From: Immundisolibacterales bacterium | Lineage (GTDB): Bacteria; Pseudomonadota; Gammaproteobacteria; HK1 | Assembly (NCBI GenBank): GCA_026712715.1 | Contig: JAPOPW010000059.1 | Location: 1 to 64,000, forward strand | Direction: 5' to 3' | DNA: 64,000 nt | Shown: positions 5,699 through 46,662 of the stretch, piece by piece | Layout: the number at the start of each line of letters is the position of its first letter | Position numbering within the stretch: the first letter of the stretch is position 1 | The notes under the pieces: generated by a model | Databases searched by the model: none | What the model saw: the letters and a program-made list of their open reading frames with translations, nothing else | Told to the model about the DNA's origin: nothing | Made by a program: the position numbers and the translations under genes

Positions 5699-5848
5699 GC
5701 TCCGTAGACTTCATGAAGGCCTCTCGGCTTCCACGCAAGCCAGGATTTTAGGGGGGAAGGAAGGGTGGAATACGGATCAGGATCGGCTACAAAAGGTCCT
5801 GAAAACCTATTCCAAACAGTCAGATGCTGTCTCACATGGTCCTTCGAG

Positions 5849-6043
5849 ATGTGGAACGGCAAGGGCGAGAACGGCCTCTCGATCTTCTTCCCGAGCCCCT
5901 TCCTCGGGGACGACGACTCCCTTCTCGACACCCCGGACTTCGGCCGGCTCGCGGCGTGGCGCTCCATCGCGGCGCGCTGGCTCGGGCGCGAGTCCGAAGC
6001 GCTCGACGAGGAGGGGGCCGGATTCCGGAAGTCCGGCCATTGA
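5849..6043 (+). pseudogene. Short coding remnant of unknown origin
   Basis: From ATG 5849 to a TGA at 6041 the frame has almost exclusively G or C in third positions, the mark of real coding DNA in this genome, although it encodes only 64 residues. The frame is open further upstream, but that part has a different composition. The product is acidic with two Trp-containing helices and matches no family I know. It is most likely the 3' end of a gene truncated at the island boundary. A genuine small protein cannot be excluded. Confidence 0.35.
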
Positions 6044-6330: not shown

Positions 6331-7332
6331 ATGAAGAAGCTCAGCCTCACCACGCTCGCGCTCGCCGCGACCGTCCTCGTCGGCACCACGTTCGGGGTCG
6401 CCGGCGATGCCGGCGCGCAGGAGCGCAAGTTCATCTCCATCGGCACCGGTGGCCCGACGGGCGTCTATTTCGTGGTCGGCAACTCGGTCTGCCGCATGGT
6501 CCACAAGGAGGCCGCGGAAGGCCGCAAGAAGGGCCGCAAGCACGGCATTCGTTGCGCCGCTCCCTCGACCGGCGGCTCGACCTACAACATCGGCCAGATC
6601 TGCCAGGGCGAGCTCGAGTTCGGCGTCGCCCAGTCCGACTGGCAGCACCACGCGGTCAACGGCAGCTCGGAGAAGGTCACGAACTGTCCGGGCCTGCGCG
6701 CGGTCTTCTCCGCGCACCCGGAGCCCTTCCACCTGATCGCGGGCGACGGCTCCGGCATCGCGTCCTTCACCGATACCAAGGGCAAGCGCATGAACATCGG
6801 GAACCCGGGCTCGGGCCAGCGCGGGACGACCGAGGTGCTGATGAGCGGCTACGGCATGAGCGCCGACGACCTTGCGGTGGCGACGGAGCTGACCTCGACA
6901 GAGCAGTCGCAGGCCCTCTGCGACGGCAAGATCGACGCTTACGGCTACACCGTCGGGGTGCCGAACGCCGGGGTCGCGGTGGCGACCGACGGCTGCGGGG
7001 CCTACATCGTCAACCTCCAGGGCGAGGTCGAGCAGAAGCTGGTCGCGGACAACCCGTTCTACGCCTTCACGACCATTCCGGCCGGCACCTACAAGACCAC
7101 CGCCGAGGACGTGACCACGTTCGGGGTGATGGCGACCTTCGTCAGCCACGAGAGCGTGCCCGAGGACGTGGTCTACGAGGTCACCCGGGCGGTGATGGAG
7201 AACCTGGACGATTTCAGGTCCCTGCATCCCGCGTTCAAGAACCTCGACCCCGCGACGATGATCAAGGACGGTCTCTCGGCTCCCCTCCATCCGGGAGCGG
7301 CGAAGTACTACCAGGAAAAGGGCTGGATGTAG
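6331..7332 (+). CDS. TAXI-family TRAP transporter substrate-binding protein
   Basis: This 333-residue periplasmic receptor delivers an unknown solute, usually a carboxylate or amino-acid-like compound in this family, to the TRAP permease encoded next. ATG 6331 is preceded by GGGAGG at 6315-6320. Residues 1-30 form a Sec signal peptide (MKKL, a hydrophobic stretch, AGDAGAQ). The mature part opens with the TAXI hallmark ISIGTGGPTGVYF, followed by the GSTYNI and FGVAQSDW segments of the binding fold. Length is typical. The permease starts about 350 bases downstream after a strong hairpin, so higher expression of the binding protein is expected. The substrate cannot be read from sequence; the downstream DapA-like and SDR genes suggest a catabolised acid. 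Confidence 0.9.
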   Translation: MKKLSLTTLALAATVLVGTTFGVAGDAGAQERKFISIGTGGPTGVYFVVGNSVCRMVHKEAAEGRKKGRKHGIRCAAPSTGGSTYNIGQICQGELEFGVAQSDWQHHAVNGSSEKVTNCPGLRAVFSAHPEPFHLIAGDGSGIASFTDTKGKRMNIGNPGSGQRGTTEVLMSGYGMSADDLAVATELTSTEQSQALCDGKIDAYGYTVGVPNAGVAVATDGCGAYIVNLQGEVEQKLVADNPFYAFTTIPAGTYKTTAEDVTTFGVMATFVSHESVPEDVVYEVTRAVMENLDDFRSLHPAFKNLDPATMIKDGLSAPLHPGAAKYYQEKGWM

Positions 7333-12156: not shown

Positions 12157-12961
12157 TCAGGCTCGCGCCGTCTCGAACGCGACGACGTTGCGCGATTCCT
12201 TGCTGAACTCCACCGCGACGAGGTGGATCGGCCGGCCGAGGTGGCGATACTTGTCGGCGTAGCCGCGACCTCTTAGCTGCGCCATCGCGGCCCCTTCCCC
12301 GGCGAGCTCCACCACCTTGAACTCGAAGAGATACACGTTGTCGTTGAACTCGACCGCCATGTCGAGGCGCCCGTGGCTCGAGCTGTCCTCCACGGTGACC
12401 TCGAGCCCGAGGGCCGTGAAGTACGAGTAGACGACGCTCGCGTAGTAGCCCTCGTAGCGGGCGATGTCGTTGTTCGTGTACCACTCGTAAGGGATGCTCG
12501 CAAAGAAGGCGCGGAACAGCTCCTCGATCCCCACGAAGTCGTTCTTCTCCAGCCGCCGGTAGAGATGCACCTGGTTCGCCGTCTGGCGCGGTCCGGTAAT
12601 CGGAATCGAGGCTCGCGCGCCGCTCGGCGGCGTCGAGCTGCTCCATGACGTTGGCTTCGAGATGGCCCGGGTCCTTGAAGTGGCCGGCCCCGAAGTCGAG
12701 CCGCACCACCGTATGGCGCACCGACCAGTCCCAGTGCGGGTGGATGTGGAGCCCTTCGAACAAGGCCTCGTTGCCCTCGAACAGCTCCTTCAGCGTGTCG
12801 AGGAACAGGCTCTTGCCGAAGCGCCGCGGGCGCGACAGGAAGTAGTGGGACCCGCCATCGAGCAGGCGCCGGATATACGCCGTCTTGTCGACGTAGTAGC
12901 AGCCCTCCTCGCGCAGCTTGCCGAAGGTCTGGATGCCGATGGGGAGCTGCCGCCGGTCCAT
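12157..12961 (-). pseudogene. Internally deleted AAA-ATPase-like / PD-(D/E)XK family gene
   Basis: Two pieces of one protein family are joined out of frame. The first (start at 12961, about 130 residues) has the N-terminal AAA-ATPase-like region typical of this family, with LPIGIQTFGKLRE, YVDKT and the P-loop-like SRPRRFGKSLFL. The second (about 12157-12600, other frame) is its C-terminal nuclease-like domain: FFASIPYEWYTNND, GRLDMAVE and YLFEFKVVE, matching the D...ExK core. Intact members are about 500-530 residues, so some 230-250 residues are missing and the frames no longer match. The gene is dead as it stands. Such proteins are often multi-copy and of unknown function. Confidence 0.75.
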
Positions 12962-13042
12962 CCAGTCACCTTATACCGCGGCCGGCCATGCGGCCGCGCC
13001 GGACCGGGCACTCACCGCCACCCGGGCGGCGCGATCAGGCGG

Positions 13043-13876: not shown

Positions 13877-13977
13877 GCGCCTTCCCTCCCGCGCAACCTG
13901 GACGTGGCAATCGAGGGCACGCCGTGGAGCGCGTCCCCTGAAGTGGACAGATTCCGCGAGGCGGAAATCGTGGATCG

Positions 13978-14166
13978 CTACCGAAGGGCCGATTCCGCCC
14001 GCGCCGCTTCAAAATGGCGAACCGCGCTTGCGAACCTGTCGCGGCAGCCGGGGTTGCGGAACCCGACGACCGCGCCGTCACACCCGGTCAGCGAGTCGGC
14101 CTGTACCGGCTTGCCCCACCAGGGGCAGGTCTCGTTGATGCACTCGACAATGTCGAGGTTCGGCAC
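13978..14166 (-). CDS. Small YHS/TRASH-like metal-binding protein
   Basis: I choose GTG 14166 because a GGAGG sits four bases upstream; the frame is open to an ATG at 14229. The 62-residue product has three cysteines in the pattern CINETCPWWGKPV...GFRNPGC, close to the YHS/TRASH metal-binding fold in which a Cys pair and a later Cys bind a metal ion. Relatives are often labelled glutathione S-transferase, which I think is a misnomer. It starts only about 60 bases from the oppositely oriented hydrolase relic at 14228. Confidence 0.6.
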   Translation of the reverse strand: MPNLDIVECINETCPWWGKPVQADSLTGCDGAVVGFRNPGCRDRFASAVRHFEAARAESALR

Positions 14167-14227
14167 GGTGCCTCCGGTCGTCTCATGATCGCGGTAGTCC
14201 ATCTTACTCGTGAGGAAGGGGAACGCC

Positions 14228-15121
14228 ATGGAGAACGAGACCGCAGCCGGCGGCGTTCGGCGGATCGAGACCGCGTGGATCGCGATGCGCGACGGCTGCC
14301 GGCTGGCCGCCCGGCTCTGGGTGCCCGTCGATGCTCGGATTCGGCTCGCGGCCGCCCGACCCGGCCGTCGTCGGCGAGCGCTGGCGGGAGATCTGGCTCG
14401 AGCGCCTCGACCGGATGTCGCCCTGGATCCTGCGCCGGCTCCGGCACCAGCGCCGCGACCGGCAATGGACGCACGGCTCGGTGTGCGAGGACCCGAGCCG
14501 CATCGAAGCCGCCGTCTACGCTGTCGGAGGCTGGGCGGACGGCTACTCGAACGCGATCCCGCGTCTCTTCGCCGGACTCGAGTCCCCCTGCAAGGGTCTC
14601 ATCTGGCCCTGGTCCCGTGTCTGGCCGTCGCCGGAGCCCGTCACCCTGTGGCTCTTCGCCGGCGCGGGCGAGCTCCGCCTGCCGGCCCGGCCCGCGAATC
14701 CCGCCGACGGCGCGCTCGAGGATCCGGATTCGCCCCGACCCGGCCCGACCGCTCCCCACCGGGAGTACCGCTCCCCCGACCGTGGCCGCCTGGTCGAGCA
14801 CGACCACCGGCGCGTCCGGACGGTCATCCGGAGCTTCAAGGACCGGGGCCGGACCCGTCTCGACGAGACCGGAATGACCATCGAGGCGCGGGGCGACGAG
14901 CGCTACGCCATCGCCGGGGACGATCCGCTCTCCGCGGAGCACGAAGTCCGGTACGTGATCGAGATGTCGCGGGAAGACTGGCGCATCCGCACCGAGTCCC
15001 GGACCACGATGACCGCGACCGCGGAGAAGTTCCTGGTTACGGCGACCCTCGACGCCTTCGAAGGGGACGTGCGGGGACGGGCAAGGGCCTGGTCGGAGCG
15101 GCTCCCGCGCGACGGAACCCG
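14228..15121 (+). pseudogene. Deletion-ridden copy of a CocE/NonD hydrolase
   Basis: From ATG 14228, with GAGGAAGGGG upstream, about 37 codons match the start of the intact hydrolase at 15171-17231 on the other strand. The frame then shifts and resumes at the segment RPPDPAVVGERWREIW. Some 150 codons, including the catalytic GxSxxG region, are gone. A second deletion follows GLIWPWS, and a third removes part of the C-terminal domain. The last about 100 residues align to the intact protein down to PRDGT, but no stop codon follows. The relic and the intact gene face each other and end about 50 bases apart, as expected from an old inverted duplication. Confidence 0.8.
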
Positions 15122-15170
15122 ATCGTTCGGGGCGCCGCCGTCAGCCAAGGAAATCGGAGACGCTTCCCGG

Positions 15171-17231
15171 TCAGGTGCCGTCGCGAGGGATGTCCTCGAG
15201 CCAGGCGCGCGCGAAGACGCAGCGCCCGTCCTCGAACACGTCGAGACGGGCGTGGATCCGGAAGCTCTCGCGGTCCGACGTCATCTCGAGCCGGGTTCGG
15301 ATGCGCACGTCGAGCCCCTCGCGGCCGTAGCGATCCTCGCCATTGAGGAGCAGCCGGGCGGAGAGCGGATCGTCCGGCGCAATCTCGAACCGGCGCCGGA
15401 TCACGTTGCCGCTGTGCCATCCGCATCGGTCCATCCGGGTTGTCCCGGCGTCCTCGACGTGGATGAACGCGAGGCGCCCGGTCCGGAAGTCCTCCTCGAA
15501 CCGGGCCACCACCGGCGCCGGCGGCGACAGCTCGGTCCGCGGGTCGAGCGAGGTCCGGCGCGCCGGCGGGAGCGCCGGCAGGAGGTCATCGGTCTCGCGG
15601 TCCCGGCGCGCCGGAAGCACGAAGCACGAGGACCCCGTGTAGAGCGTGAGCTCCACCGGCTCCGGCGCGGGCCACGCGATGGGCCACATCCCCGTGGAGA
15701 GCGCGAGGCGGATCCGGCTGCCCTTCGCGAATCGATAGGCATTTGCGTTCATCACAATCGACGTCGAGAACGCCTCGCCCGGTGCGAGCGGTGCGGCCGT
15801 CTCGTGGGACTCGTCGTGGGTCAGGTTCCGGAGTCCGAAGCTCACCAGGTTCACTGCGCCATCGGCGCGCACCTCGGACAGCCGCGCGCCCAACTGGGCC
15901 ACCGGACGATCGCTCGCGAGCCGGAGGTGGGCGACCGGCATGCCGAAGAACGCCAGCGGCTCCTCGAGCGGCTCGGTGTCGAAGCAGAGCGAGACCGCGT
16001 CGTCGATGCGCTGGTCGCCCGGGCCCTCCGGGGCGTCGAGGCCGTTGTGCCCCCAGAACGGGTTCGCCCGCCCGACCGTCGCGGGCGATGTGAACGCAAG
16101 AGCCGTCTCCGCCCCCGGCGTCTCCCGGAGCCCGTCCGTGTCGAGATGCCAGGTCCGCGCGGATTCCGCGCCCGGCGGCCAGCCATTCTCCGCGATCCAG
16201 TGTCCCGGGACCTCCCGGAGCACCGGCGAGGGCCGGTAGCTGTCGTGCATCCAGGCCCGGATCATGGGCTCGCGGTCAACGCCGGTGTCCTCGTCCTTGA
16301 GCCACCGGTCCCACCACCGGAGGCTCTCCTGCAGGAACCCGGAATCGGGCGCCGGCAGGGCCTGGTGGGGGTACTGGTGACCCCACGGGCCGATCCAAGC
16401 GCGCCGCGGCACGCTCAAGCCCGCCATCAGCCGGAGAGCGGGATCCGTGTAGGGGTCCGCCCATCCTCCCACCGCGAAGACCGGGCAGGCGATGGCGGAG
16501 AAGTCCTCGCAGACCGAGCCGTGCTTCCAGAACGCGTCGCGGCGCTGGTGACGGAGCCATTCGAGAATCCAGGGGGGGCTGTTCTCGAGGCGCCGGAACC
16601 ACGTCTCGCGCCAGTCCGGCCCGACCAGCGCCGGATCCGGCGGCCGGGCGTTGTGGCCGAACATCGTGAAGCACCAGTTCGGATTCTCGACGAGCTGGCA
16701 ACCGCCCATGGTGTGGATGTCGGTCGCGTATCGGTCGTCCGTCGAGCAGACCGAAATGACCGCCCCGAGAGCGGGAGGACGGCGGGCGGCGACCTGAAGG
16801 CAGTTGAATCCGCCCCAGCTCTTGCCGAACATCCCCACCCGTGCGGTGCACCAGGGTTGGGCGGCGAGCCAGGCGATGACCTCGACCGCGTCGGCCTGCT
16901 CCTGCTCGAGGTATTCGCCGAGAAGGAGGCCGTCGGACTCTCCGCTCCCCCGAAGATCAACGCGGAACGAGGCGTAGCCGTGCCCGGCGAAGTAGGGGTG
17001 CATCGCCTCGTCGCGCGCCGACGTCCCGTCCCGCTTGCAGTAGGGGATGTACTCGAGGAGCGCGGGAACCGGATGGTCTTCCGCGTCGGCCGGCAACCAG
17101 CACCGGTAGGCGAGCCGGGTCCCGTCCGACAGCGGGATCCAGCCATGCTCGATCTCGCGAATGGGTCTCGGCAACGCCTCGTGGCTCACCACCCCCGTCT
17201 CGTCTTCGGCTCCACGTTGCGGGGCGATCAT
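15171..17231 (-). CDS. CocE/NonD family hydrolase (X-Pro dipeptidyl-peptidase S15-like)
   Basis: A 686-residue alpha/beta hydrolase. The nucleophile is the serine of GMFGKSWGGF (about residue 150); the aspartate is in GGWADPYTD (about 275) and the histidine in GPWGHQYPH (about 300). The C-terminal jelly-roll domain of the S15/CocE group covers about 360-590, and the rest is a family-specific tail. ATG 17231 is preceded by GGGAGG five bases away. It is directly downstream of a collapsed peptide ABC transporter on the same strand, so it may once have cleaved imported peptides or esters. There is no signal peptide. Confidence 0.85.
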   Translation of the reverse strand: MIAPQRGAEDETGVVSHEALPRPIREIEHGWIPLSDGTRLAYRCWLPADAEDHPVPALLEYIPYCKRDGTSARDEAMHPYFAGHGYASFRVDLRGSGESDGLLLGEYLEQEQADAVEVIAWLAAQPWCTARVGMFGKSWGGFNCLQVAARRPPALGAVISVCSTDDRYATDIHTMGGCQLVENPNWCFTMFGHNARPPDPALVGPDWRETWFRRLENSPPWILEWLRHQRRDAFWKHGSVCEDFSAIACPVFAVGGWADPYTDPALRLMAGLSVPRRAWIGPWGHQYPHQALPAPDSGFLQESLRWWDRWLKDEDTGVDREPMIRAWMHDSYRPSPVLREVPGHWIAENGWPPGAESARTWHLDTDGLRETPGAETALAFTSPATVGRANPFWGHNGLDAPEGPGDQRIDDAVSLCFDTEPLEEPLAFFGMPVAHLRLASDRPVAQLGARLSEVRADGAVNLVSFGLRNLTHDESHETAAPLAPGEAFSTSIVMNANAYRFAKGSRIRLALSTGMWPIAWPAPEPVELTLYTGSSCFVLPARRDRETDDLLPALPPARRTSLDPRTELSPPAPVVARFEEDFRTGRLAFIHVEDAGTTRMDRCGWHSGNVIRRRFEIAPDDPLSARLLLNGEDRYGREGLDVRIRTRLEMTSDRESFRIHARLDVFEDGRCVFARAWLEDIPRDGT

Positions 17232-17481
17232 CGCTACCTCCCGGGACTCATTGCTTGGCGTGAAAGTTCAAGGTCGGGCCAGACCCGCAGATCGGTTTCG
17301 TGAACGGGAAGTACAAGGCGGCTACCAACAGACTTGCAGGCAACTCTCGTGTCGGCGTGCTCCACGGGCTTGCGATAAACGGGGTGACTTCGAGCATGTC
17401 TCGTCGGTCGTTGGCTCCGCCTTGCCGGACTTGCGCTCACAACGTTCATCATCGCCTCCCGCGCTTCGCCCGCGCCGGCGC

Positions 17482-18740
17482 TCATGCGATGCCGACCAGC
17501 GGATGATGGCACCGGACCTGGCGGCCTTCCATGATTCTCCGTTCGACCGGAATCTCGGCCGAGCAACGCGGGGTTGCATGGGGGCAGCGGGTGCGGAACT
17601 CGCAGCCCGTCGGCCGGTTGATGAGGCTCGGGATCTCTCCCTGGATGGGGGCGGCCAGGACCCGTTTCGCGGGGTCCGGCCGGGGGATCCCGCGAATCAG
17701 GGCGTCGGTATAGGGATGCGCGGGCGCCCGGAACACGGCCTCGCAGGGGCCCCGCTCGACGATGCGGCCGAGATACATGATCGCGAGGCTGTCGCAGATG
17801 TGCCGGATCGCGGGCAGGTTGTGGCTGACCAGCAGGTAGCTCAACCCCCGCTCCTCGCGCAGCTCCGCCAGGAGGTTCAGGATCTCTCCCTGCACGGACA
17901 CGTCGAGGCCGGCGGTCGGCTCGTCCGCCACCACCAGCGAAGGCTCGAGCGCGAGCGCACGGGCAACGCCGACCCGCCGCGCCTGCCCGCCGGAGAACTC
18001 GTGGGGATACCGGTCAAGCAGGGGGGCCGGAAGCTGCACCATCTCGCAGAGCCGTCGAATGATGGACTCCACGCTGCCGTCGGTGCCTCCATGGATGTGG
18101 AACGGCTCCGCGAGCAGGGAGCGCACGGTCTTTCGGGGGCTCAAGGACCCCACCGGATCCTGGAAGATCATCGCAAGGTGACGCCGGAAGGCGGTCCACT
18201 CGCTGGCGGAAAGCTCCCCGACGTCCCTGCCGTCGACGACGATCGAGCCCTCCGCGGTCGCGATCTCCGCCGCGTCCTGAACCGCGCCGGTGACCATCTG
18301 GAGGGACTGCCTCACCCGGGGATCGAGCGCCGCGATCGCGAGGTCCGCGACGAGGATCACGTTGACGTAGAGCACCGAGGTGACGAGCACCGCGCCCTGC
18401 ACGACGGGGAAGTTCCGCGTCATCACCATGTCGAAGATGAGCTTTCCCACCCCGGGGCGGGCGAAGATGATCTCGGCGAAGACCGCGCCGGAGAGGAGCC
18501 CGCCGAAGCCCATGCCGATGAGGGTGAGGGTCGGAAGGATTGCCGCCCTCAGGGCATAGCCATAGACGATCCGCGGCCGCGAGATGCCGAGGGACCGCGC
18601 CGCGCGAAAGTAGGTCTCCCCCATCACCTCCAGCATCGACGCCCGCACCATGCGCGCGAGGTACCCCACCCAGCCAAGGCCCACCGCAAACGCGGGAAGG
18701 ACGAGATGGTGCAACTGGTCGACGGGGTCCCCCGGGTCGC
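17482..18740 (-). pseudogene. DppB permease / DppF ATPase fusion left by deletions
   Basis: Read on the minus strand, the first about 140 codons are the C-terminal half of a DppB-like permease (HLVLPAFAVGLG onward to AALDPRVR). They run in frame into a DppF/OppF-like ATPase that begins after the P-loop (EGSIVVDGRDVG). The ATPase part keeps the Q-loop (MIFQDPVGSLSP), signature (EFSGGQARR), Walker B (SLVVADEPT), H-loop (SHNL) and oligopeptide C-terminal Cys motif (CEFRTRCPHA). Walker A, the first half of DppB and all of DppC and DppD are missing. A 410-residue frame from ATG 18714 is open, but the product cannot hydrolyse ATP. Gene order SBP-B-C-D-F explains all the pieces. Confidence 0.85.
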
Positions 18741-18744
18741 CGTC

Positions 18745-19132
18745 GCCGATAAATGGAGAACTTCACGTCCTCGGCGGTGAATTCCCCGTAGCCGTTGGTC
18801 GACATCAGGCCGGGTCGGAGCTTGAAGTCGATGCTCAGCGGATCGCGCTGGGTCACGCTCTCGATGTGCCAGCCGGGGCCGGCTCCGAGCCCGCCCGGAC
18901 CGTAGGTGTACTGCGCAACGCGCGGAAGAATGGAGTCTTCGACGTCGATCCCCGATCCGCCGACCATGTAGCCCGGATCGAGGGAGGTGATGTCATCGCG
19001 TGCGCGGAGCTTGAGGGTGCCGTCCTGCGCCCTTGCCAGGATCGGCAGTCCCAACGCACCTCCGGCCGCCATTCCGGCGGCGCCGCCGGCTGCGGACAGA
19101 AACCGTCGCCGGGTAAGATTGAAGGGGTTCGT
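18745..19132 (-). pseudogene. Truncated Tat-exported peptide-binding protein (SBP_bac_5)
   Basis: The fragment keeps a twin-arginine leader (TRRRFLSAAGGAAG, cleaved near ILARAQD) and about 90 residues of an oligopeptide-binding protein (TSLDPGYMVGG, then EFTAEDVKFSI). It then runs out of frame into the DppB piece. A GAGGAGG at 19138-19144 lies five bases before an ACG at 19130-19132 in the expected start position, so the start codon itself seems to be lost (ATG to ACG). This is the 5' end of the collapsed dipeptide transporter operon. Confidence 0.75.
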
Positions 19133-19370
19133 GCGCGCCTCCTCGTTCAGTTTGCGGCGGCCCGGTACGGTCCGCCGCGATTGATCGTGCCGCCGGAACG
19201 ACCGCGGCCCGAGTACGCCTGAGGAACCGCGCGTCCCGGTCGGCTGCGCCCGAACTACTAGCCGAGACCCAAGACTGCGCAACTCCGGCCGCCGGGCGAG
19301 ACCCGCCTCCGATCGCGGGCATTGCCGTAGACTCCCCGCCACCGGCTTCCTCGAGCGTTCTCGCCCTGCA

Positions 19371-20267: not shown

Positions 20268-20424
20268 GAGGGGCGGACTGCCGGGGGCGGACTGCCGGGG
20301 GCGCGCCGCGGGCAATCGATTCCGGAATCTTTCCATGTTCCCCCGGACTCGCTAACCTTCGGGATCGGGGTCCGTCCGGTGCGCGGCGGGTCGCGGAGTG
20401 CCGAACCGGAAGGGAGCGGGCAGC

Positions 20425-23208
20425 ATGAGCGAGGCAGTCGCCTTCAGTCTGGACGGCCGCGACGTCGCGGCGGCGCCGGGGGAGACCATCTGGCAGGTCG
20501 CGGCGCGCGAGGGAGTGCCGATTCCGCACCTTTGCCACTCGGCCGAGCCCGGCTACCGCCCGGACGGCAACTGCCGTGCCTGCATGGTCGAGGTGGAGGG
20601 CGAGCGGGTCCTCGCCGCGTCCTGCATCCGTCACCCCGCGCCGGGCATGAAGGTGAAGACGGACACCGAGCGCGCCCGTCACTCGCGCCGCAGCGTGTTC
20701 GAGCTTCTCCTCGCGGACCAACCCGCGCGCGACGCCGCCCACGAGCACGACTCGCGTTTCTGGGGGTGGGCGGACCGGATCGGGCTCGGGAAAAGCCGAT
20801 TCCCGGTACGCGAGTCCTCCCCCGCGCCCGACGCTTCCCACCCCGCGATGCGCGTCGCCCTCGACGCCTGCATCCAGTGCAACCTCTGTGTACGGGCATG
20901 TCGCGAGGTGCAGGTGAACGACGTCATCGGCATGGCCTGGCGCGGGCACGGTTCGAGCATCGTCTTCGACTTCGACGACCCGATGGGGGAGAGCACCTGC
21001 GTCGCGTGCGGCGAGTGCGTGCAGGCGTGTCCGACCGGGGCGCTCATGGAGGCGTCGCTCGTGGACGAGGTCGGCGTGGACCGGCGGCTCGCGCTCCGCG
21101 AGGTCGAGAGCGTGTGCCCCTACTGCGGGGGCGGGGGCCAGATCACCTACCGCATCGACGGCGACCGGATTGCGGCCGTCGCCGGCCGCAACGGTCCGTC
21201 GAACGAGCAGCGCCTCTGCGTCAAGGGTCGCTTCGGATTCGACTACGTCGCGCATTCGGACCGGCTCACCCGCCCGCTCGTTCGCCGCGACGACGCGCCG
21301 AAGTCCGCGGACGACGCGGTCGACCCCGCGAACCCCTGGACCCACTTCCGCGAGGCGACCTGGGAGGAGGCCCTCGACCGGGCCGCCGCGGGTCTTGCGC
21401 GCATCCGCGACCGGGACGGGGGCGGGGCGCTCGCCGGGTTCGGCTCCGCCAAGGGGTCGAACGAGGAGGCGTACCTCGTCCAGAAGATGATCCGCACCGG
21501 GTTCGGCACCAACAACGTCGACCACTGCACGCGCCTTTGCCACGCATCTTCGGTGGTGGCGCTCCTCGAGGGTATCGGCTCGGGGGCGGTCACCGCCCCG
21601 TTCACCGCGTGCGCGGAGTCGGACGTCGTCATCGTCATCGGCGCGAACCCGACCGAGAACCACCCGGTCGCGGCCACCTTCTTCAAGCAGGCGTCGAAGA
21701 CGAAGACCCTCATCCTCATGGACCCGCGCCGCAACGGCCTCGCCCGGCACGCCCGGCACGTGCTCCAGTTCGAGCCCGGGACCGACGTCGCGCTCCTGAA
21801 CGCCCTCCTCAACGTCATCGTCACCGAAGAGCTCCACGACCGGCAGTACGTCGAGGCCCAGACCGAAGGCTTCGAGAACCTGCGCCGGCACATTGCGCAG
21901 TTCACCCCGGAGGCGATGGCGCCGGTGTGCGGCATCGATGCCGAGACCATCCGCACGGTGGCCCGCACCTACGCCAAGGCGGAAAGGGGAATCATCTTCT
22001 GGGGGATGGGGATTTCGCAGAGCACCCACGGAACCGACAACGCGCGCTGCCTCATCGCGCTCGCCACGATCACGGGGCACGTGGGACGCCCCGGCACCGG
22101 GCTCCACCCGCTCCGGGGCCAGAACAACGTGCAGGGGGCCTCGGACGTCGGCCTCATCCCGATGGTGTTTCCCGACTACCAGGCCGTCGATGCGCCGGAC
22201 ATCCGCGCCCGCTTCGAGGACGCATGGGGCACCTCCCTCGACCCCGAGCGCGGCCTCACGGTGGTCGAGATCATGCACGCGATCCTCGCGGACGAGATCA
22301 AGGGCATGTACATCATGGGAGAGAACCCCGCGATGTCGGACCCCGACATGCAGCACGCTCGCGAGGCCCTCGCGAAGCTCGAGCATCTCGTGGTGCAGGA
22401 CCTCTTCCTCACCGAGACCGCGGTCCACGCCGACGTGATCCTCCCCGCATCGGCGTGGCCGGAGAAGGACGGCACGGTCACCAACACGAACCGCCAGGTC
22501 CAGCTCGGGCGTACCGCCCTTCCGCTCCCCGGCGACGCGCGCCAGGACTGGTGGATCGTGCAGGAGATCGCGCGTCGCCTCGGGCTCGACTGGCGCTACG
22601 AGCACCCGCGCGACGTATTCGCGGAGATGACGGAGGTGATGCCGTCGCTCGACAACATCACCTGGGAGCGGCTCGAGCGCGAGAGCGGGGGGACGTATCC
22701 GTGCCTCGGGCCGGAGCAGCCTGGCGAGGACATCGTCTTCGGCGACGGGTTCCCGACCGAGTCGGGGCGGGCGAAGCTCGTGCCGGCGCTGATCGTGCGC
22801 GCCGTCGAGGAGCCGGACGACGAGTACCCGATGGTGCTGACGACCGGACGGCAGCTCGAGCACTGGCACACGGGGGCGATCACCCGGCGGGCGGAGATCC
22901 TCGACGCGCTCGAGCCCGAGGCGGTGGCGAGCCTCTCGCCGGCGGACCTTGGGCGGCTCGGGCTCGCGGCCGGCGCGCCGGTCCGCATCTCGACCCGGCG
23001 CGGAGCCATCGAGATCGCGACCCGACGCGATCCGGCCGTCCCCGAAGGCATGGTGTTCGTGCCCTTCTGCTTCGCGGAGGCGGCGGCCAACGTCCTCACC
23101 AACCCCGAGCTCGACCCCTTCGGCAAGATCCCCGGCTTCAAGCTCTGCGCGGCGCGGGTCGAGCCGGTGGCGGTCGAGGCCGAGCCGGCGCCCGCCGCAG
23201 CCGACTGA
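20425..23208 (+). CDS. Formate dehydrogenase alpha subunit (Mo/W-bisMGD, cysteine type)
   Basis: A 927-residue cytoplasmic oxidoreductase that oxidises formate to CO2, or the reverse. ATG 20425 has GGGAG upstream. The N-terminal [2Fe-2S] domain uses Cys37, 50, 53 and 67. Two [4Fe-4S] ferredoxin motifs follow (CIQCNLCVRAC near 150, CVACGECVQAC near 190), then the fourth cluster motif CPYCGGGG near 230 and the catalytic domain. The molybdenum ligand is a cysteine in CTRLCHASS, where selenoprotein relatives have Sec. The C-terminus is the molybdopterin dinucleotide-binding barrel. This is the FdsA-like architecture of soluble NAD-linked enzymes, but no FdsB/FdsG diaphorase subunits or FdhD lie nearby. 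Confidence 0.88.
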   Translation: MSEAVAFSLDGRDVAAAPGETIWQVAAREGVPIPHLCHSAEPGYRPDGNCRACMVEVEGERVLAASCIRHPAPGMKVKTDTERARHSRRSVFELLLADQPARDAAHEHDSRFWGWADRIGLGKSRFPVRESSPAPDASHPAMRVALDACIQCNLCVRACREVQVNDVIGMAWRGHGSSIVFDFDDPMGESTCVACGECVQACPTGALMEASLVDEVGVDRRLALREVESVCPYCGGGGQITYRIDGDRIAAVAGRNGPSNEQRLCVKGRFGFDYVAHSDRLTRPLVRRDDAPKSADDAVDPANPWTHFREATWEEALDRAAAGLARIRDRDGGGALAGFGSAKGSNEEAYLVQKMIRTGFGTNNVDHCTRLCHASSVVALLEGIGSGAVTAPFTACAESDVVIVIGANPTENHPVAATFFKQASKTKTLILMDPRRNGLARHARHVLQFEPGTDVALLNALLNVIVTEELHDRQYVEAQTEGFENLRRHIAQFTPEAMAPVCGIDAETIRTVARTYAKAERGIIFWGMGISQSTHGTDNARCLIALATITGHVGRPGTGLHPLRGQNNVQGASDVGLIPMVFPDYQAVDAPDIRARFEDAWGTSLDPERGLTVVEIMHAILADEIKGMYIMGENPAMSDPDMQHAREALAKLEHLVVQDLFLTETAVHADVILPASAWPEKDGTVTNTNRQVQLGRTALPLPGDARQDWWIVQEIARRLGLDWRYEHPRDVFAEMTEVMPSLDNITWERLERESGGTYPCLGPEQPGEDIVFGDGFPTESGRAKLVPALIVRAVEEPDDEYPMVLTTGRQLEHWHTGAITRRAEILDALEPEAVASLSPADLGRLGLAAGAPVRISTRRGAIEIATRRDPAVPEGMVFVPFCFAEAAANVLTNPELDPFGKIPGFKLCAARVEPVAVEAEPAPAAAD

Positions 23209-31651: not shown

Positions 31652-32206
31652 TCACCCGCCGCCCGCCCGCGGCCCGTTCATGTTCCTAATCGCCGGCCGC
31701 GGTCCGTGCTCCGCTCCATCGCCGCCGGTGCGCCGCTCCACCTTGCATCCGAGCTCGTCGAGTGCGGTCAGGACCTCGTCCGCATGCCGGCCGGGCTTCA
31801 CCTTCTCGTACACCCTCGCGATGCGCCCCTCCGGATCGATGAGGTAGCTGATGCGCCGCGCGAACCACTGTCTCGGCTTCTTCGCCGCGCCGTAGCGCAT
31901 CGACACGGACCGATCCTCGTCGCTGAGGAGGTCGAACGGGAAGGCGTTCTTCTCCCGGAACGCCCGGTTCTTCGCTTGCGAGTCGAAGCTCACGCCGACG
32001 ATGACCGCGTTGCGGGATGCGAATTCCTGGATTCGATCACGGAACCCCCTGCCCTCCACGCTTCACCCGTAGGTACCGGCCTTGGGATACCACCAGAGGA
32101 GGAGGTAGCGGCCCCTAAAGTCGGCGAGGGCGCTCGGCACGCCGTCCTGGTTGGAGAGCTTGAACGCCGGAGCGGGTTCGCCCGCGCTTCGAAGGGTGGG
32201 GGTCAT
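31652..32206 (-). CDS. Bcp-type peroxiredoxin, probable selenoprotein, copy A (in-frame UGA at 32063-32065)
   Basis: From ATG 32206 the frame encodes a thioredoxin-fold peroxiredoxin (AFKLSNQDGVPSALADFRGRYLLLWWYPKAGTYG). It meets UGA exactly where Bcp proteins have the peroxidatic cysteine (TPGCT), then continues in frame (SVEGRGFRDRIQEF, IVGVSFDSQAKNRAF, ISYLIDPEGRIARVY) to a TGA at 31652. Read through, it is 184 residues with Sec47 or 48 as peroxidatic residue. The C-terminus is about 30 residues longer than copy B. No resolving cysteine follows at +5. A hairpin at 32016-32038 could act as a SECIS. It lies between copy B and hyuA on the same strand. The alternative is a pseudogene, which the intact downstream frame makes less likely. 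Confidence 0.72.
32016..32038 (-). promoter_or_regulatory. Candidate SECIS-like hairpin downstream of the copy-A UGA
   Basis: Starting 25 bases after the UGA, GAUCGAAU pairs with AUUCG-C-AUC (eight pairs, one bulged C) around a six-base loop CCAGGA containing GG. Position fits the usual bacterial window, but in copy B only five pairs of this helix are kept, so it remains a candidate. Confidence 0.35.
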
Positions 32207-32350: not shown

Positions 32351-32812
32351 TCATCCAAGCTCTTCGAGCGCGGCGAGCACCTCGGCCGGATGCTCGGCCG
32401 GCACCACGTTCCCGTAGACCCGCACGATGCGGCCCTCCGGATCGATGAGGTAGCTGATGCGCTTGGGGTACTCCTGGTCCGCGCTCTCCGCCGCGCCGTA
32501 GCGCATCGAGACCGACCGGTCCTCGTCGCAGAGGAGGTCGAACGGAAAGTCGAACTTGCCGCGGAACGCCCGGTTCTCGGCCGGCGAGTCGCAGCTCACC
32601 CCGACGATGACCGCGTTGCGGGAGGAGAAATCCTGGATTCGATCACGGAACCCTTTTCCCTCCACCGTTCACCCGGGGGTGTCGGCCTTCGGGTACCACC
32701 AAAGGAGCAGGTAGTGTCCCCGGAACTCGGCGAGATCCGTCGGCACGCCGTCCTGGTTGGAGAGCTTGAACGCCGGGGCCGCCTCGCCCGCGCTTCGAAG
32801 GGTGGAGCTCAT
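32351..32812 (-). CDS. Bcp-type peroxiredoxin, probable selenoprotein, copy B (in-frame UGA at 32669-32671)
   Basis: ATG 32812 opens a frame identical in plan to copy A (AFKLSNQDGVPTDLAEFRGHYLLLWWYPKADTPG), then UGA at codon 48, then TVEGKGFRDRIQDF, IVGVSCDSPAENRAF, YPKRISYLIDPEGRIVRVY and a stop at 32351. With Sec the product is 153 residues. The context TPG-U-TVEG matches the peroxidatic TPGCT motif of the Bcp/PrxQ family position for position. Two other cysteines (VSCDS, LLCDED) might serve as resolving residues. Compared with copy A there are many substitutions but no frame damage, which suggests selection on readthrough. A TTGACA-type promoter lies upstream. Confidence 0.75.
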
Positions 32813-43541: not shown

Positions 43542-43848
43542 GAGAGGGCCCCGGCTTGCCTGCACCCGGTGCGACGCCGGCAGACGCAACCATGTGGGAA
43601 GGGGCCCGGAGTAGTCGGGACAATGGGACCGACAGGTCCGGAGAAGCCCGCTCCGGCGCAAATCCTGTGTATTCGCCAGGACGAAGTTTGTAGGTTCGCG
43701 CAGTCTCCCTTTCCCTGCAAATCTTTTTGGCTGCACCTTCGCAATCCAGGCGTTACGCTTGCCGCATGTGCATGCGAAGCGAGCCGTTGCTGCGCGGGGA
43801 GCGAGTCCGGCACCGTGCCCGGTCGCGACGCCCGGAGCCCCGCGGCCG
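43542..43848. other. Intergenic stretch before the LuxR-type gene
   Basis: About 307 bases between the truncation point of the AAA fragment and the LuxR-type start. Nothing recognisable; it presumably contains that gene's promoter. Confidence 0.35.
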
Positions 43849-46617
43849 ATGACCGAGACCGACCCGAGTCCGAGCCCGGGCGACGGCGGCGGGCTCGTCC
43901 GCCCGCTGCTGGACGAAGGCGCCTACGACGCACGCGCGACCGCTTGGCTGCTGCGCCAGAAGATCGCCGTCCCCGACCGGGTGGCCGGGTATCTCGACCG
44001 CAGCGGGCTGGTGGAACGGGCCATGCCGACGCGGCGGCGCCTGACGGTGGTGGTGGCGCCGGGTGGGTTCGGAAAGACGACCCTGCTCGGCGCGTGCTGC
44101 CGCCGGGCGCGCGAGGACGGGATCCCCGTCGCGTGGGTTTCCGTGGACGAGCAGGACGAGCCCGCGGTTCTGGACACCTATGTCGCCTGCGCCTGCCGGA
44201 GCGCCGCCCGCGGCGGGCCTGCGGATGTGGAGGATCTCGGGGTTTCGGTTCTCGGACAGGCGGGCAAAGAGACCGGTGCCCGCACCGCACTCGCGCTGCG
44301 CGAGATCGAGGCCCACGACGGGCCGTTCGTGCTGGTGTTCGACGAGCTGGAACGGCTCGGGAGCCCGGATGCGGTGGCCTTGCTGGAGTTCCTGCTGCAG
44401 CGCGGCCCGGCGAACCTGCACCTGGCCTTTTCGGGCCGCGATCTTCCCGCCGGGGTGAATGTCGCCAGCGCGGTGCTGGACGGCCAGGCCGAAGTCCTTT
44501 CGGCGGAGGACCTGCGGTTCACCAGCGCGGAGGTCGCGGACTTCTTCGACGGCAGGCTGTCCGGCCGGCGACTGGACGCGGTGATGTCGGAGTCGGCCGG
44601 CTGGGCGTTCGCGCTCAGGCTCTCCCGAAACGAGTTGGAGCGGGGCGCACGCGACGATACGCGCGCCTCGCGCAAGCTCGTCGAGAACTGGGTGGAGTCG
44701 CGGCTGTTCGCGGGCCTCGGGACGCAGGACCGGGAGTTCCTGCTCGACATCGGCCTGTTCGAATGGATGGACGCGGCGCTGCTCGACGAGGTGCTGGAGC
44801 GCGGCGATTCGTTGCGCCGGATCGACACGATGCCGGCCCTGGCCGGCCTGCTCGAGCCGGTGCGCGACGGCGCAAGGCAGGTTTGGCGGCTGCATCCGCT
44901 GGTCCGGGAGCATTGCGCCCGGCGGCGCTTCCGCGAGGCGCCGCTGCGGTTCCGGGCCATCCATCGGCGGATTGCCGGCGCTCTCGGGCGCCGGGGGCAG
45001 ACGGTGGACGCCGTGCGCCATGCGGTCGAGGCCGGGGAGCCGGGGCTTGCGGGCGACATCGTGGAGGACGCCGGCGGCGTCCGCCTGTACCACCGCGAAG
45101 GGGCGGTGCAGTTTCAGGCCGCTCACCGCCTGCTCACCGAGGACGCCGTCGCCGCGCGCCCGCGCCTTGCGCTGGTGCGGTGCCTGTCGTCGCTCCTGTC
45201 GGGGCGGATGGACGAGGCGAGGGCGCGATACCACTCGCTCGCCGGGGCCCTGGGCAGCCTTCAGGTCAATGCGAGCGGCGCCGCGTTCGAGCTGGCGGCG
45301 GACCATTGCATGGTGCGGGGCATGCTCCTGCTCTATGGCAGCGAAAGCCTGGACTCGACGTTGATGCGCGCGCATCTGGCCGACGTTGCGCGCCTCGCGG
45401 AATCGCCGCACGCGGATGTCCTGACCCGGGGGATTCTCGAATACACCCTTTGCCTGGCGGGCAACTGGACCGGGAACATCAAGGAGGCGCTCGGCCATGC
45501 CGCTCGCGCGCGGCCGTGCTTCGCCCAGAGCCGCTACATGTCGATGTTCCTGGACGTGCAGGAGGGGCTGGCCGCGATGGCGCAGGGCCGGGTGGAGGAT
45601 GCGGCTGCGCTGTACCGTCGCGCCGAGCGGGTCGTCACGGAGCGTTATGTGCTGGACCCCGAACCGGCGGCCGTGTGCAACGCACTGATGCACGAGCTCT
45701 CGCTCGAGTGCGGCCGCGCGGCGCCGGAGGCGGAGCCGAACCGCGTCCCCGAAGCGCTGAGGCAGGGCAACACGTCCTTCCAGGCCTACGCGGCGGCGAG
45801 CGGCGCCGTGCTGGAGACGAAGCTTCGCCACGAGGGGGCCGATGCGGCGCTCGCGGCCGCAGACGAGATGCTGGACTACGTGCGCAACGCCCGGCTGCCG
45901 GCGCTCGTGCGGTACGTGTCGGCGCTCCGGGTGTCGCTGCTGGCGACCGCCGGCCCCATCGGCGACGCTGAGCGGGCCTGGAAGGCGGCCGATCTGCCCC
46001 CGGACGCGGCCGGCTGCCTGGACCTCGCCGGCCAGACCTGGCGGGAGATGGAGGCGCTGTCCTCGGCCCGCCTGCGCCTGGCGATCGGGCGCTGGCGCTT
46101 CGAGGAAGCCCGCGGCTTCGCCGGAGAGCTGCGCGCGGCGGCGGCGGCGCGGGGGCTGAAGCGCACGCTGATGCGCTTGCTCGCGCTGTCGGCGGTGCTG
46201 GAAAGGCGCGCCGGGGACGGGGCGGCGGCCGCCGCACACGTGGAGGAATATCTCTTCGCCTACGCAGATTCTCCCTACGCGGGGCCGCTGGTGCGCGAGC
46301 GCGCCGAGTGCGCCGAGCTCCTGGCCGCCTGTCTCGAGACGGCGCCCGGCTCGCGTGCCCGGGACGCGGCGCGCGCGCTCCTTGCGGCGATGGAGAGCGC
46401 GGACGACCCGCGGCATCGGCTGCTCAGCGCGCGCGAGCGGCAGGTCCTGGAGCGGCTCGCGGGCCGGCGGGACAAGCAGATTGCGGCGGAGCTGGGCCTG
46501 AGCGTGTATGGCGTTCGCCATCACCTGCGCAACGTGTTCGCCAAGCTCGGGGTGCGCAACCGGGCCGAGGCGGTGCGCCGGGCCCGGGAGATGGGCCTCA
46601 TCCACGGCGGCTCCTGA
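43849..46617 (+). CDS. Large ATP-binding LuxR-family regulator (MalT/LAL type)
   Basis: A 922-residue regulator. The P-loop is VVAPGGFGKTTLL (about residues 63-75), followed by a STAND/MalT-like ATPase with FVLVFDELERL as Walker B (about 160). A helical repeat (TPR-like) region spans about 350-830. The C-terminal LuxR helix-turn-helix (about 860-915) reads LLSARERQVLERLAGRRDKQIAAELGLS, split here over its recognition helices. I take ATG 43849, with GGAG upstream; an alternative in-frame start lies 30 codons earlier. MalT-like proteins bind an inducer and ATP before activating transcription. The ligand and targets are unknown; no adjacent operon is obvious, and a 28-base palindrome follows the gene. 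Confidence 0.85.
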   Translation: MTETDPSPSPGDGGGLVRPLLDEGAYDARATAWLLRQKIAVPDRVAGYLDRSGLVERAMPTRRRLTVVVAPGGFGKTTLLGACCRRAREDGIPVAWVSVDEQDEPAVLDTYVACACRSAARGGPADVEDLGVSVLGQAGKETGARTALALREIEAHDGPFVLVFDELERLGSPDAVALLEFLLQRGPANLHLAFSGRDLPAGVNVASAVLDGQAEVLSAEDLRFTSAEVADFFDGRLSGRRLDAVMSESAGWAFALRLSRNELERGARDDTRASRKLVENWVESRLFAGLGTQDREFLLDIGLFEWMDAALLDEVLERGDSLRRIDTMPALAGLLEPVRDGARQVWRLHPLVREHCARRRFREAPLRFRAIHRRIAGALGRRGQTVDAVRHAVEAGEPGLAGDIVEDAGGVRLYHREGAVQFQAAHRLLTEDAVAARPRLALVRCLSSLLSGRMDEARARYHSLAGALGSLQVNASGAAFELAADHCMVRGMLLLYGSESLDSTLMRAHLADVARLAESPHADVLTRGILEYTLCLAGNWTGNIKEALGHAARARPCFAQSRYMSMFLDVQEGLAAMAQGRVEDAAALYRRAERVVTERYVLDPEPAAVCNALMHELSLECGRAAPEAEPNRVPEALRQGNTSFQAYAAASGAVLETKLRHEGADAALAAADEMLDYVRNARLPALVRYVSALRVSLLATAGPIGDAERAWKAADLPPDAAGCLDLAGQTWREMEALSSARLRLAIGRWRFEEARGFAGELRAAAAARGLKRTLMRLLALSAVLERRAGDGAAAAAHVEEYLFAYADSPYAGPLVRERAECAELLAACLETAPGSRARDAARALLAAMESADDPRHRLLSARERQVLERLAGRRDKQIAAELGLSVYGVRHHLRNVFAKLGVRNRAEAVRRAREMGLIHGGS

Positions 46618-46662
46618 GGAGCTGCAGCGCAGAGAAGAGTGCGCCGGCCGATTGGGGTTAAC

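Follow-up and report, generated by a model that had tools for sequence, protein, structure and literature searches.

An Opp/Dpp-type peptide importer operon probably reduced to a dead remnant with an open permease-ATPase reading frame

In Mycobacterium tuberculosis multigene deletions create chimeric reading frames, of which one is reported to be functional and one more to be backed at the protein level (PMC7671302). ABC transporters count among the top prokaryote pseudogene families (PMC522871), and gene fragments together with small deletions in neighbouring genes are described for Rickettsia (PMC2374718). The locus analysed here lies on the minus strand, from position 19132 to 17482, of a window of 64,000 bases that forms the opening 64 kb of contig C27 in a draft genome of 5.05 Mb (82 contigs, ~5% contamination). 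It resembles the Opp/Dpp (PepT family) importers, in some relatives of which DppD and DppF are fused in one protein, both in gene order and in the sequence of the pieces that are left. Unlike them, it has kept about 30% of the DNA, has neither a P-loop nor DppC, retains half of DppB and has lost the start codon of its peptide-binding protein (SBP). We read it, with a probability of about 0.88, as what is left of an Opp/Dpp-type peptide importer operon, now dead, in which two or more internal deletions have occurred and the start codon has changed. In literature searches no listed title or abstract opening described this operon, which leaves its absence from the literature unproven.

Anatomy of the remnant beside intact operons

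By tblastn and Pfam, the minus strand carries the head of an SBP gene, the C-terminal half of DppB and a DppF without its P-loop, in this order, confirming both the coordinates and the anatomy of the SBP'-DppB'-DppF' collapse in the original prediction. The lost SBP gene still has a Shine-Dalgarno sequence, GAGGAGG (19138..19144, minus strand), followed after 5 nt by ACG (19130..19132, minus strand) in the start-codon position, so that this element of the prediction can be read directly from the letters. After the ACG comes a twin-arginine-like RRRFL, in the place where relatives have RR(E/G/R)F. SBP' itself (18757..19132, minus strand) is approximately the first quarter of a peptide-binding protein: in tblastn with four intact SBPs, stretches within 19162–18752 matched residues 22–151 of 545 in L037 (36%), 41–129 of 519 in L043 (45%), 55–151 of 542 in L061 (48%) and 55–181 of 573 in L041 (36%). 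Its reading frame is stop-free throughout, and taken alone it gave no Pfam match. The binding protein is incomplete, with about 130 of some 540 residues left and ACG where its start codon should be.

At junction 1 (18752..18757, minus strand), placed by the ends of the tblastn alignments, SBP' gives way to DppB' and the frame shifts. Since SBP' and DppB' occupy different frames, translation from the SBP start would miss the fusion. DppB' (18301..18756, minus strand; tblastn and Pfam) corresponds over 152 aa to residues 177–328 of 328 in L037 (72%) and also matches the C-terminal ends in L038, L039, L043 and L061, with values of 68–72% across relatives; the homology of the remaining pieces is above chance. 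The C terminus of DppB' is whole (LDPRVRQSL against LDPRVRKSL in L037) and its stop codon is gone. The permease pair is incomplete: DppB' stands alone, and no DppC lies between it and DppF'.

Junction 2 follows, together with about 14 codons of uncertain origin (18259..18300, minus strand; read from 18300 to 18259) that match no relative well. We scored these codons against the DppC-start, DppF and DppD segments of seven relatives and against 2000 shuffles. The best score with DppD was 31, reached by 1.35% of the shuffles and coming from one of the seven relatives, while the mean over all seven was reached by 37%; neither the DppC start (33% of shuffles) nor DppF (85%) leads. On this comparison of sequences our best guess is that the codons may be a scrap of DppD from beyond its P-loop. 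If so, junction 2 is really two junctions.

DppF' (17482..18258, minus strand) is an ATPase without N terminus and Walker A according to tblastn, Pfam and alignment. Between about 18258 and 17491 it matches seven relatives at 52–61%, in a stretch that starts past the P-loop and reaches the natural end. Walker A is missing, while both D and F of all seven aligned relatives have GESGxGK[ST]. DppF' keeps FSGGQ (LSGGQ in six aligned relatives), VVADEP, SHN and the letters of a Q-loop, which we take to be the ABC signature, Walker B, the H-loop and the Q-loop. Run on the fusion, Pfam covered positions 35–137 of 137 of the ABC_tran profile, the whole of oligo_HPY and positions 50–184 of 184 of BPD_transp_1. 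The predicted open permease-ATPase frame is present in the ORF list (17482..18714, minus strand), at 410 codons from a TTG at 18714 or 426 codons from stop to stop.

Relatives with the full operon, which the prediction had named as the comparison to make, hold the missing parts in the same order. L037 and L040 have SBP, DppB, DppC, DppD and DppF in series, with OppC_N and permease domains in DppC, and the order SBP-B-C-D-F with an OppC_N plus permease gene at the C position is found in each of L037, L061, L043 and L040. Two CocE/S15 peptidase genes come after the operon in L040; in L043, L061 and L039 DppD and DppF form one protein (frames of 681–693 codons) and CocE comes next. Other loci vary: L039 has B, D and F and is without an SBP end, L038 has B, D and F with a weak SBP match, and in L041 the SBP gene is inverted. 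From tblastn coordinates, the loss at junction 1 comes to 1860 bases relative to L037 and 1709 relative to L061, and that at junction 2 to 2083 and 2130 bases, respectively. In all, about 3.8–3.9 kb, some two thirds, is gone from an operon that would measure about 5.5 kb. These comparisons support the proposed erosion by at least two large deletions. Most of the SBP, half of DppB, all of DppC and the ATPase P-loop are lost as had been stated; for DppD, whose loss had been given as complete, we would say all or nearly all. At the level of sequence, the matter of which parts are missing is settled.

We propose that a formerly intact SBP-DppB-DppC-DppD-DppF operon, with CocE/S15 peptidase genes alongside, would have lost most of the SBP, half of DppB and all of DppC through two or more internal deletions, the SBP start codon having changed as well. 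Also lost in these events would be the P-loop with which DppF binds ATP and the whole, or almost the whole, of DppD, and the second junction would have come to lie in frame by accident, leaving the DppB'-DppF' frame open. The order of the deletions and the start-codon change, and with it the stepwise course named in the prediction, is not readable from one genome. Two of the five junctions in three relics (SBP'/DppB', DppB'/DppF', two in the CocE2 relic and one in an AAA/PDDEXK_9 gene, both treated below) are in frame, which is about the one in three expected without selection. We also considered repeat-mediated deletion and saw no sign of it: among the repeats listed (at least 20 for direct and at least 25 for inverted ones) all are short or weak, and none was seen to mark the junctions.

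Decay or use of the open frame

Several properties of the remnant bear on whether it is dead or in use. DppF' breaks 9 of 104 positions that are invariant in six others, as against 0/95, 2/97, 3/98, 1/96, 6/101 and 6/101 for the intact copies (L043 was left out of this test for its masked residues). SBP', compared with four relatives over 106 aa, breaks 5 of 23 such positions; intact SBPs break 0/18, 3/21, 1/19 and 9/27, and that of L041 breaks more than SBP' does. DppB' breaks 3 of 67, within the intact range of 0–7. In codon-position GC, DppB' and DppF' still look like live genes, and a codon-usage scan trained on four window genes returned 17590–18750, the greater part of the fusion, as one coding segment. 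Coding-like codon positions and the few breaks in DppB' fit recent decay, and they fit a frame in use as well; the evidence taken together points to recent decay and not to use.

A working fusion would be a membrane-anchored ATPase fragment that does not bind ATP and has a regulatory or decoy role, and the 410-codon open frame, its coding-like codon positions and the little-altered DppB' speak for it. Against it, such a protein would lack Walker A, would have half a membrane domain and no partner subunits, and its ATPase part is altered at the 9 of 104 conserved positions given above. Nor is an open frame of this length a sign of function here, since in the 64-kb window, at about 70% GC, stop-to-stop frames of 410 codons or more number 61; two other long frames overlie the gene at 20398–23208 (formate-dehydrogenase-like, by eye). 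Conservation of the fusion in other species, which the prediction had named as an argument for function, was sought and not seen at strict cut-offs: outside the window's own genome, no match spanning the fusion came up among 54 further relatives (E<=1e-120) or among 368 further genomes of the class (E<=1e-95, up to four candidates scored per genome), where G021 was matched by the ATPase part only. These sets share genomes, and a fusion that has diverged strongly would not be picked up at such E-values. We consider a working fusion protein highly unlikely, and the fusion of the two gene fragments is almost certainly dead.

The same pattern could arise if, at either junction or at both, the contig had jumped over sequence of an operon that is in truth intact, and the draft state of the genome, with its 82 contigs and about 5% contamination, makes this conceivable. 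An assembly artefact would need at least two skips in the operon plus two more in the CocE2 relic, and it leaves unexplained the ACG start and the additional substitutions in DppF'. Furthermore, a similar internal loss is seen in the congener G002, where EamA is down to residues 264–297 of 298, and no second, closer copy of the operon exists in the genome among the matches listed. We regard such an error as improbable, though less so than a working fusion. Returning to the reading of a dead remnant, we infer that the pieces are out of use and that their decay is recent. Their loss may have been tolerable thanks to the many other peptide-type ABC systems of this genome, which yields dozens of further ABC ATPase and DppB-type permease matches, none above 47% identity among those listed.

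Peptidase neighbours, repeat and history of the locus

Next to the remnant lies CocE1 (15171..17231, minus strand), an intact CocE/NonD (Peptidase_S15) hydrolase by Pfam and TIGR00976. Its 686 residues score 216.8 bits (CocE/NonD cut-off 66.3), match the family over the full length and hold GKSWGG, the nucleophile motif. Of 136 positions on which the eight other sequences agree, CocE1 departs at 2, a count that is shared for lowest among the nine. In score and in GKSWGG it is like the described CocE/NonD, Peptidase_S15 proteins (TIGR00976, PF02129); unlike its homologues in relatives, which adjoin transporter genes, this predicted hydrolase has lost the transporter beside it. A second gene, CocE2 (14228..15119, plus strand), is a relic by alignment to CocE1: residues 24–51, 187–288 and 516–686 (CocE1 numbering) are left after two internal deletions, the first junction being out of frame and the second in frame. 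This copy thus collapsed in the style of the transporter genes; the prediction had mentioned neither it nor the intact peptidase. Relatives have two CocE genes in L039, two in L043 and three in L040. Elsewhere in this genome, on L107 (G000:C50), positions 6694–6843 match CocE residues 19–68 with 74% identity to CocE1, the rest of the gene being unmatched on L107; the same locus has a 3-kb stretch that is 85% identical to window positions 43580–46635, where the gene bears a LuxR-type domain.

About 250 bases separate DppF' from CocE1. In L039 only some 40–60 bases lie between the DppDF frame and the start of the CocE match, and in L061 the CocE match overlaps the DppDF end. The spacer of the window contains a 187-nt copy of a dispersed repeat (17242..17428, plus strand; genome search and alignment). 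Repeat lengths are mostly 163 or 187 bases, the longer form having an extra 24-base hairpin insert, and the ends are well marked, with CYRG at both in most copies. Allowing at most 3 mismatches, the repeat core was counted 36 times in this genome, 11 times in G001 and once in G004, with none in G002, and a reversed-core control gave 0 matches. Copies lie in L113–L142. Twenty-eight were extracted (23 of the 36 in G000, 4 of the 11 in G001 and the single one in G004), L122 of G001 being seen apart from these, and a 24-row alignment was made without L114, L115, L128 and L140. A structured RNA was considered and is not claimed: six copies gave no Rfam match up to E=1, and there is hardly any covariation (a term of +0.09 over 24 copies, with two-sided change in 4 of 17 predicted pairs). 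Rfam likewise found no RNA element in the window at gathering scores. The repeat is perhaps a non-autonomous mobile element. A tentative and rather doubtful suggestion is that the transporter was deleted piecemeal while the peptidase was kept, set apart by this lineage-specific repeat, and that the peptidase may now serve another uptake system or substrate.

Remnant, repeat, CocE1 and CocE2 lie within a block of 5.4 kb (13901..19308) that is absent from this site in both congeners searched, G001 and G002. In G001 the same two flanking stretches align (up to 13900, shikimate-dehydrogenase-like; from 19309 on, EamA) and lie 244 bases from each other, and nothing in between matches the block. That spacer (L096 8326–8569, 244 bases) holds, by eye, an inverted repeat, GTCTTCCCGGGATCGCGGGC and its complement, that is unlike the repeat of the window. 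In G002 the shikimate-dehydrogenase-like gene adjoins the formate-dehydrogenase-like gene. What is left of EamA there (L097 7918–8022; 63% identity, E 1.8e-9) sits between two conserved genes and is decayed in the same style. Also near the dehydrogenase-like gene of G002 is a DUF7676-matching stretch (L097 9388–9598); in the window, a DUF7676 tail scored alone at 5843–6025 (plus strand; profile 121–166 of 166).

Within the reading of a dead remnant, the block may have been gained by transfer and then failed, or it may descend from an ancestral operon that the congeners lost. Transfer would agree with its absence from the site in G001 and G002, neither of which has a DppB' match at E<=1e-35, and with the best DppB'/DppF' match among 15 genomes being that of G021, from another family of the class. 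On the other side, G004, of the same family, has the whole operon L037 and matches DppB' nearly as well as G021 does, the nearest CocE of 13 genomes (68–70% identity) is in G001, elsewhere and at a contig end, and the composition of the block is unremarkable. The data favour neither history, and we hold the two in balance.

Two further features of the window were noted. At 12157–12967 (minus strand) an AAA-ATPase_like/PDDEXK_9 gene has one internal deletion, of about 740 bases relative to copies in G016:C39 and G013, and its head and tail lie in different frames. Tandem AhpC/TSA peroxiredoxin genes have an in-frame TGA at 32671–32669 and at 32065–32063 (minus strand), in the contexts WYPKADTPG-TGA-TVEG and WYPKAGTYG-TGA-SVEG, presumably at the expected position of the peroxidatic cysteine of AhpC/TSA. 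Folding the 60-base stretches that start at the two TGAs gives energies of -17.6 and -23.1 kcal/mol, with no shuffle control. A tRNA-Sec gene is also present in the genome (G000:C66:19507–19598; 72.5 bits, above cut-off). The pair are probably tandem selenoproteins, which gene callers would cut short.

The locus among known cases of gene decay

The finding is real, and it is one of ordinary and unsurprising gene decay that alters no general view. Its value is that of a clean worked example of operon death by internal deletions, in which heads and tails of genes persist, their frames remaining open for a time because the genome is GC-rich, and in which one partner gene outlives the operon. For annotation it is a caution: a "permease-ATPase fusion" of 410 codons may well turn up among gene calls, although it is almost certainly no real protein.

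At 5 Mb the genome studied here differs from those of Rickettsia, which are small and belong to intracellular bacteria. The likeness to Rickettsia is that adjacent, variably present genes decay through separate deletions (PMC2374718). With the prokaryote pseudogenes of the survey the locus shares an ABC family, many similar systems in the genome and a possible failed transfer; unlike that survey, ours is a junction-by-junction dissection of a single locus (PMC522871). As in the M. tuberculosis cases, a deletion across gene borders has joined two frames in frame, and unlike those cases nothing here suggests function or a protein (PMC7671302). We saw nothing outside the known picture of chimeric frames made by deletion, of which this locus is one more case.
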